Assembly (NCBI GenBank): GCA_017994115.1
Contig: JAGOLK010000010.1
Span: 1-41,555, forward strand
Origin: Clostridia bacterium
GTDB lineage: Bacteria > Bacillota > Clostridia > Lutisporales > Lutisporaceae
Direction of reading: 5' to 3'
DNA length: 41,555 nt
Below, piece by piece: positions 21,898 to 23,446 of the stretch. How positions within the stretch are numbered: position 1 is the first letter of the stretch; each line of letters opens with the position of its first letter. Both the position numbers and the translations under genes were made by a program. The notes below the pieces were generated by a model. It was not told the DNA's origin. It was given only the letters and a program-made list of their open reading frames with translations, and made no database searches.

Positions 21898-21926
21898 TTG
21901 CCAATAAATATGTTATATGATAAACT
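21898..21926 (+). promoter_or_regulatory. Candidate SigA promoter for rpsB
   Basis: TTGCCA at 21898-21903 (five of six consensus bases) and TAAACT at 21921-21926 are 17 bases apart. The -10 is preceded by TGA, giving an extended -10 (TGnTAAACT). The predicted start is near 21933, about 100 bases before rpsB, leaving room for the structured leader. No terminator is visible between the flagellar operon and this promoter. Confidence 0.6.
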
Positions 21927-21945
21927 GTTTAAGGTGAAAAACACA

Positions 21946-22005
21946 CATGGCCTGATCCTTCGGGGGAGTGCTTTTACAAAGTCCTCAAAGGATATGACGG
22001 TCATG
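21946..22005 (+). promoter_or_regulatory. Structured rpsB leader RNA, possible S2 autoregulatory element
   Basis: The leader folds by eye into one long imperfect hairpin. 21946-21952 pairs with 21999-22005 (7 bp, one G-U). 21955-21960 pairs with 21988-21993 (6 bp). 21963-21967 pairs with 21982-21986 (5 bp, one G-U). 21971-21974 pairs with 21978-21981 around a TAC loop. Unpaired TG versus ATGAC, CG versus A, and a GTG bulge interrupt the stem. It ends 13 bases before the AGGAGGTGA ribosome binding site. Ribosomal protein leaders often mediate feedback; S2 binding here is inference. Confidence 0.55.
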
Positions 22006-22033
22006 GAGGAAAAACTATAGGAGGTGAAACATT

Positions 22034-22732
22034 ATGTCAGTAATTTCAATGAAACAGCTATTGGAAGCAGGAGTGCACTTCGGCCACCAGACAAGAAGAT
22101 GGAATCCGAAGATGGCGGAGTATATCTTTACTGAAAGAAACGGCATATACATCATCGATCTTCAGAAAACAGTAAAGAAGGTCGAAGAAGCGTACAACTT
22201 CATAAAAGAAGTGGCAGCTTCAGGCAAGGATATACTTTTCATAGGAACTAAGAAGCAGGCACAGGAGTCAATCGAATCTGAAGCAATAAGAGCCAATATG
22301 TTCTATGTGAACCAAAGATGGCTAGGCGGGATGCTAACCAACTTCAAGACCATCAGAAAAAGAATTGTAAGACTTAATGAACTGGAGAAAATGGAAGAAG
22401 ACGGCACTTTTGAAGTACTTCCGAAGAAGGAAGTTATCAATCTGAGAGCTGAAAAGGAAAAGCTTCAGAAGAATCTTGGCGGTATCAAGAATATGGGTGA
22501 GAATCCGGGAGCGATTTTTGTGGTTGACCCCAGAAAAGAAAAAATTGCAATTCAGGAAGCGCACATTCTCGGGATTCCGATAGTTGCAATAGTTGATACC
22601 AATTGTGATCCTGAAGAAGTAGACTATCCGATTCCCGGCAACGACGATGCTATTAGGGCCGTAAAACTTCTTACTTCAAAAATTGCAGATGCGGTTATTG
22701 AAGCTAGACAAGGTGAACAGCTTGCTGAGTAA
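22034..22732 (+). CDS. rpsB: 30S ribosomal protein S2
   Basis: This 232-residue protein shows the S2 signatures [22 protein letters not shown] near the N-terminus and [22 protein letters not shown] near the C-terminus. It is part of the 30S body and is needed for S1-type functions on mRNA entry. Length is normal for Firmicutes. ATG 22034 has an excellent AGGAGGTGA site. The gene is flanked upstream by a structured leader and downstream by a terminator-like hairpin before tsf. Confidence 0.98.
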
Positions 22733-22749: not shown

Positions 22750-22772
22750 AAGGCGGCGACAGCCGCCTTTTT
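22750..22772 (+). terminator. Intercistronic hairpin between rpsB and tsf
   Basis: AAGGCGGC at 22750-22757 pairs with GCCGCCTT at 22762-22769 (8 bp, GC-rich) around a GACA loop, followed by T residues to 22772. The form is that of an intrinsic terminator with a short U-tract. Because tsf has no obvious promoter in the remaining gap, it probably acts as a partial terminator or mRNA-end stabiliser that sets the rpsB to tsf ratio. Confidence 0.75.
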
Positions 22773-22798
22773 CATAAATATCATAGGAGGCGAAGAAA

Positions 22799-23446
22799 AT
22801 GATTTCAGCTTCAGCTGTTAAGGAATTAAGAGAAAGAACCGGTTCAGGCATGATGGACTGTAAAAAAGCTCTTACCGAAAGCAACGGAGACATGGAGAAA
22901 GCAATAGAAATACTAAGAGAAAAAGGGCTTGCCGCTGCCGCAAAAAAAGCAGGCAGAATAGCAAGCGAAGGAATAGTTGACTCATACATACACGGAGGCG
23001 GAAGAATCGGAGTACTAATTGAAGTAAATTCCGAAACAGACTTTGTTGCAGCCAACGAAGAATTCAGACAGTTTGTAAAGGACATGGCAATGCAGGTTGC
23101 TGCTTCCAATCCTTTATACGTCAAAAGGGAAGATGTTGATCCCAAGGTTATAGAGAAAGAGCGTGAAATATACAAAGCCCAGGCTTTGAATGAGGGAAAA
23201 CCTGAGAAAATTATTGAAAGGATGGTCGAAGGCAGAATAGAGAAGTACTACAAGGAAATATGCCTTCTGGAACAGCCCTTCATTAAGGATACAGACAAGA
23301 CAGTGCAGGAAATACTTACGTCACTGATAGCAAAAATCGGAGAAAATATTACGATAAGAAGGTTTGTCAGGTTTGAAAGAGGCGAAGGCCTTGAGAAGAA
23401 AGAAGACAACTTCGTTGATGAAGTAATGAGTCAGGTGAATAAATAG
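22799..23446 (+). CDS. tsf: Translation elongation factor Ts
   Basis: This 215-residue guanine nucleotide exchange factor recharges EF-Tu. The N-terminal UBA-like domain has [19 protein letters not shown] (about 5-23). The core has [17 protein letters not shown] (about 67-83). The C-terminal part includes EQPFIKD. It is of the short Firmicutes/Thermus-like form rather than the roughly 280-residue E. coli form. ATG 22799 follows ATAGGAGGCGAAGAAA. Confidence 0.97.

Follow-up and report, generated by a model that had tools for sequence, protein, structure and literature searches.

Ahead of the rpsB gene in the 41,555-nucleotide stretch of DNA analyzed here (the window) lies a long, interrupted hairpin, which raises three questions: whether the structure is a genuine leader RNA, to which family it belongs, and how it could control the genes behind it. 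An earlier note on this DNA had read it as a structured ribosomal protein leader, possibly undescribed in Clostridia, placed between a good SigA promoter and the rpsB ribosome binding site. The reading favored here, with a probability of roughly 0.88, is that the element is the clostridial rpsB motif (t44), an S2-autoregulatory leader of the rpsB-tsf mRNA whose pseudoknot would block translation initiation.

The promoter, leader elements and genes described below are on the forward strand. A consensus scan identified a -35 box (TTGCCA, 21898-21903) followed after a 17-nt spacer by an extended -10 box (TG-A-TAAACT, with the hexamer TAAACT at 21921-21926), which together gave 9 of 12 consensus matches plus the extended TG. 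The promoter claimed earlier is present, and its strength taken alone is moderate rather than good. Among relatives, a -10 box in a similar position (median 17 nt ahead of the leader) matched the consensus in at least five of six bases in 61 of 62 cases and carried an extended TG in 59 of 62, counts that were obtained by picking the best-scoring hexamer and that stand without a chance control. This conservation lends support to the window promoter, from which transcription would start at about 21933, where the leader would begin. The Shine-Dalgarno sequence (SD) of rpsB, read from the sequence (AGGAGGUG, 22019-22026), and the ATG at 22034 are where the note had put them, the latter 29 nt downstream of the end of the hairpin. 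The rpsB ORF (22034-22732) encodes ribosomal protein S2 (232 aa, 95% identity with the S2 encoded in a related clostridial genome), the product of the regulated gene and the presumed repressor, and the second gene of the operon is the tsf ORF (elongation factor Ts, 22799-23446). Annotated records of Bacillus, Enterococcus, Legionella and Acinetobacter show the same gene order.

Folding reproduced all four stems (7, 6, 5 and 4 bp) that had been drawn between 21946 and 22005, with the GUG at 21968-21970. The basal stem P1 (7 bp, 21946-21952/21999-22005) had a pair probability of ~1.0. The upper long stem followed with 0.92-1.0 over 6 bp (21955-21960/21988-21993) and about 0.67-0.76 over a further 5 bp (21963-21967/21982-21986). 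The short apical stem P3 (CUUU/AAAG, 4 bp, 21971-21974/21978-21981) was weak, with a pair probability of ~0.3 in this register, and its length varied among relatives in an alignment of 62 leaders. The folding energy of 21946-22005 was -21.7 kcal/mol versus -13.9 ± 2.9 kcal/mol for shuffled sequences (z -2.7; matched or bettered by 4 of 200 shuffles), an excess that by itself is only suggestive; the reality of the hairpin is settled by the comparative (covariation) data and not by energy alone. P1 lies between two conserved boxes. The first, the rpsB motif's CACAC box on the 5' side (21942-21946), which recurs in the E. coli leader as well as in the t44 consensus, contains a CAC that is invariant across the 62 aligned leaders. 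The GGAGG box (22005-22009), directly 3' of P1 and sharing its last base, is also found in the E. coli leader; its first two G and last G are invariant in the same alignment, and its middle varies (GGAGG, GGCGG, GGTGG, GGAAG). This box is not the SD of the start site, as it is too distant from the ATG. The element as a whole runs from CACAC (21942) through the 3' strand of a pseudoknot (22014-22016), with rpsB beginning 17 nt after its end, and is larger than the bounds of 21946-22005 given in the note, although the hairpin within those bounds is real.

For comparative analysis, S2-encoding loci were taken from 80 Firmicutes genomes, and 62 leaders were aligned using MAFFT on sequence alone, without structure input (alignment A1). 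The consensus of A1 comprised 15 stem pairs, 14 of which showed two-sided changes: six of seven in P1, where 95.4% of cells were paired, and eight of eight (consensus register) in the upper long stem (21955-21993), where 83.9% were. Across all stems, 89.2% of cells were paired, versus 56.1 ± 1.2% after shuffling and 43-50% when partners were slid by 1-3 columns, and the covariation score was 0.919 versus 0.255 ± 0.016 shuffled and 0.16-0.23 slid. The consensus structure was derived from A1 itself, which favors the true over the slid register in percentage paired, but this bias is insufficient to explain the gap in two-sided change cells (354 versus 74-122 in the slid versions). The covariation check across Clostridia that had been proposed was strongly positive, and the view of the element as a structured ribosomal protein leader of rpsB held up, with S2 encoded directly after the leader in each of the 38 Firmicutes loci checked, the window's own among them. 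That the hairpin is a product of chance or base composition without function, as its merely moderately unusual energy would allow, is a reading of negligible probability, already refuted, as judged from these comparisons, by massive compensatory change in stems and pseudoknot and by the detection of the element in genomes from across the phylum.

The "GTG bulge" of the note is no plain bulge and belongs mostly to the 5' strand of a pseudoknot that had been missed (AGU, 21967-21969). Its 3' strand (ACU, 22014-22016) is located 3 nt ahead of the SD GGAGG and 17 nt ahead of the rpsB ATG. In the columns of 21967-21969 the 62 leaders carried GGU (39), GUU (9), AGU (6), CGU (4) or UGU (4), and the two strands changed together among relatives (GGU/ACC, AGU/ACU, UGU/ACA, CGU/ACG, GUU/AAC). 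A Watson-Crick complement between GGAGG and the SD of the same leader was present in 55 of 62 leaders, versus 32.2 ± 2.7 when triplets were permuted among leaders, a count reached in 0 of 5000 rounds; with G-U pairs allowed, the complement was found in 61 of 62 leaders versus 45.5 ± 2.2 permuted. The signal was maximal at exactly these columns (z 8.4), with neighboring columns reaching at most 4.6. Within the window, the stem pair A21967-U21982 competes with the AGU strand of the pseudoknot.

The core of the pseudoknot is only 3 bp. Watson-Crick pairing at a fourth and fifth position (30/5000 and 14/5000 permutations, respectively) marginally supports a possible extension to 4-5 bp in a subset of leaders; as a general feature, 4-5 bp was dropped since the permutation support was only marginal, and no signal for positions 6-7 was obtained in the permutation test on the aligned leaders. 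Possible 5-bp pseudoknots (CUCGU/ACGAG, CCCGU/ACGGG) were seen in L048 (1407-1491), L064 (1406-1491) and L073 (1406-1492), where the putative 3' strand extends into the SD itself (GAGGAGG/GGGAGG). In 61 leaders, the 3' strand lies a median of 2 nt (IQR 1-3) from the SD, compared to 3 nt in the window, and a median of 15 nt from the start codon, compared to 17 nt in the window and 24 nt in E. coli. Tight spacing between pseudoknot and SD was considered as a hallmark of Clostridia and rejected as a clear-cut divide, as the Legionella pseudoknot also abuts the SD and those of Bacillus and Proteus are gapped.

To which family the element belongs was addressed using Rfam. At gathering scores no match was found in the window region. 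A permissive search returned RF00127 (t44) at 21924-22015 over the full length of the model (1-95), with 32.3 bits and an E-value of 5.2e-5 that refers to the 601 bases searched; at E-values up to 1, t44 was the sole Rfam family to match there. The t44 gathering score of 44 bits, which the window does not reach, is a curation limit of a model centered on the gammaproteobacterial form and not a biological feature. In E. coli K-12, t44 adjoins rpsB upstream and scores 83.5 bits. As defined by Meyer et al. (2009), the "rpsB motif" has a long P1 topped by a junction and a pseudoknot between the junction and a 3' extension; it was reported from Alpha- and Gammaproteobacteria, a small number of other Proteobacteria, Cyanobacteria and part of the Firmicutes, in the last with a pseudoknot given as 3 bp (PMC2704228). 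The window element presents the same architecture, namely a P1 between CACAC and GGAGG topped by a junction, a short or absent P2, a variable P3, and a pseudoknot, likewise 3 bp, from a GGUGCC-like apical junction (J2-3) to the 3' extension, and no essential difference from the published motif was identified. With t44 (the E. coli rpsB leader, gene tff) it shares its place before rpsB, CACAC, the interrupted long stem, the GGUGC junction, the GGAGG box and full-length model matches in both directions. It differs in its pseudoknot, which is GGGGU/ACCCC (5 bp) in E. coli and has the 3-bp core AGU/ACU in the window, and in the shorter distance from pseudoknot strand to ATG. In contrast, the L1, L10, L20, S15 and S4 leaders have autogenous ribosomal protein feedback in common with it, while their structures, genes and ligands differ. 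The window element, E. coli t44 and the rpsB motif are one homologous family, and the window element is a member of this known family falling below the Rfam threshold, not a new kind of leader.

A covariance model built from A1, and thus from Firmicutes leaders only (R1), was used to assess the distribution of the element. In the window's own genome R1 gave exactly one match (21942-22026, E 1.9e-15). One copy each was found in 134 of 149 genomes of a phylum sample, and 129 of 196 genomes of a class sample had a match, single copy except for one genome with two equal-score matches. In the identical class sample, Rfam t44 at threshold found 0 of 196, an annotation gap that a Firmicutes seed would mend. 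No R1 match was found in 67 of the 196 class genomes and 15 of the 149 phylum genomes; families f2, f6 and f25, for example, were each sampled with two genomes and gave a match in neither, and in such lineages the element seems to be lost or diverged past the model. For a wider comparison beyond E. coli, rpsB loci came from misfiled chromosomes and chromids of a plasmid collection. R1 matched the E. coli leader over its full length (36.6 bits, E 6.5e-8) and scored 35.6 on Aeromonas, 30.6 on Proteus and 24.8 on Legionella; on the Firmicutes and Fusobacteria side, scores were 76.2 for Acetoanaerobium, 55.4 for Bacillus, 29.6 for Enterococcus and 23.2 for Fusobacterium. Scores were weak for Acinetobacter, Catenovulum and two Rhizobiaceae, and the Nonomuraea and Sulfurovum rpsB loci gave no match. 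The boxes CACAC, GGUGC, GGAGG and ACC recurred in most matching leaders.

These results bear on the suggestion that the leader is undescribed, which in its strongest form would make it a ribosomal protein leader specific to Clostridia and with no relation to that of E. coli. The failure of t44 to reach its cut-off in the window and in all 196 class genomes speaks for such a separate origin. This is outweighed by the full-length sub-threshold t44 match in the window, the recovery of the E. coli leader by a clostridial model, the intermediate R1 scores of Bacillus, Enterococcus and Fusobacterium, and the shared conserved boxes and pseudoknot. The rpsB motif had, moreover, already been described in some Firmicutes (PMC2704228), so the label "undescribed" does not stand and a separate origin is very improbable. 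A regulatory RNA known from E. coli occurs in the greater part of the Clostridia sample and also outside it; the present data carry the range of the rpsB motif through the clostridial phylum and point, marginally, to pseudoknots of 4-5 bp in a subset of leaders.

The proposed action of the leader follows work on E. coli, which points to S2 as the ligand and translation as the controlled step (PMC10931766): there, surplus S2 represses rpsB-tsf translation via the leader, effective repression requires bS1 (PMC10931766), and the repression by this leader is translational and S2-dependent (PMC10931766; PMC2704228). In the window, the leader from about 21933 would fold into the long interrupted hairpin, and the unpaired AGU near the hairpin top would pair with the ACU just ahead of the SD to form the pseudoknot. 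When free S2 exceeds uptake by new 30S subunits, S2 would bind hairpin and pseudoknot and stabilize the latter against the SD, ~3 nt away. The stabilized pseudoknot would then prevent initiation by 30S subunits at rpsB, and tsf expression would fall too. Because the median distance from the 3' strand is 2 nt to the SD and 15 nt to the start codon, S2 on the pseudoknot would be expected to obstruct an initiating 30S subunit. Transcription attenuation within the leader was rejected and translational control favored, since a scan of the leader found no terminator-like site. S2 autoregulation as in E. coli, as the note had proposed, is the best explanation and probably correct, with S2 binding and repression in the window leader taken over by analogy.

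The same conserved RNA could instead serve another ligand in Clostridia, such as another ribosomal protein or EF-Ts, or another outcome, such as mRNA stability or processing. In the literature searched, no S2-binding or repression experiments on Firmicutes rpsB leaders were found. In E. coli S2 needs bS1 (PMC10931766), and the S1-domain ORFs of the window's genome, among them a 718-codon ORF carrying four S1 domains, encode only putative ribosomal proteins. Conversely, the element precedes rpsB in 38 of 38 Firmicutes leaders checked, the E. coli version responds to S2 (PMC10931766), and the position of the pseudoknot at the SD favors control of initiation. A different ligand or outcome is therefore unlikely, if less so than a separate origin of the leader, and S2 autoregulation remains the preferred reading.

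The details of S2 autoregulation could differ in Clostridia because the E. coli system needs bS1 and its S2 operator is said to leave out the ribosome binding site (PMC10931766); the mechanistic details of E. coli S2 repression were themselves described as unclear in a 2024 review (PMC10931766). It is conceivable, at odds clearly below even, that the clostridial pseudoknot acts directly on the SD, which would make the element a simpler, perhaps bS1-independent regulator. SD-overlapping pseudoknot pairing would be possible in some lineages, for example CUCGU/ACGAG-GAGG in L048 and L064. With its pseudoknot against the ribosome binding site, the clostridial leader may be a cleaner system than that of E. 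coli for the study of S2 repression, and the value of the present findings is modest, lying in annotation and in a test system for mechanism.

A terminator-like hairpin was also observed in the gap between rpsB and tsf (window 22750-22773), where AAGGCGGC-GACA-GCCGCCTT is followed by TTTC. In a loose scan without chance control, 47 of the 79 rpsB-tsf gaps from relatives had a comparable hairpin with a T-rich tail, and this intergenic hairpin may set the rpsB:tsf ratio.
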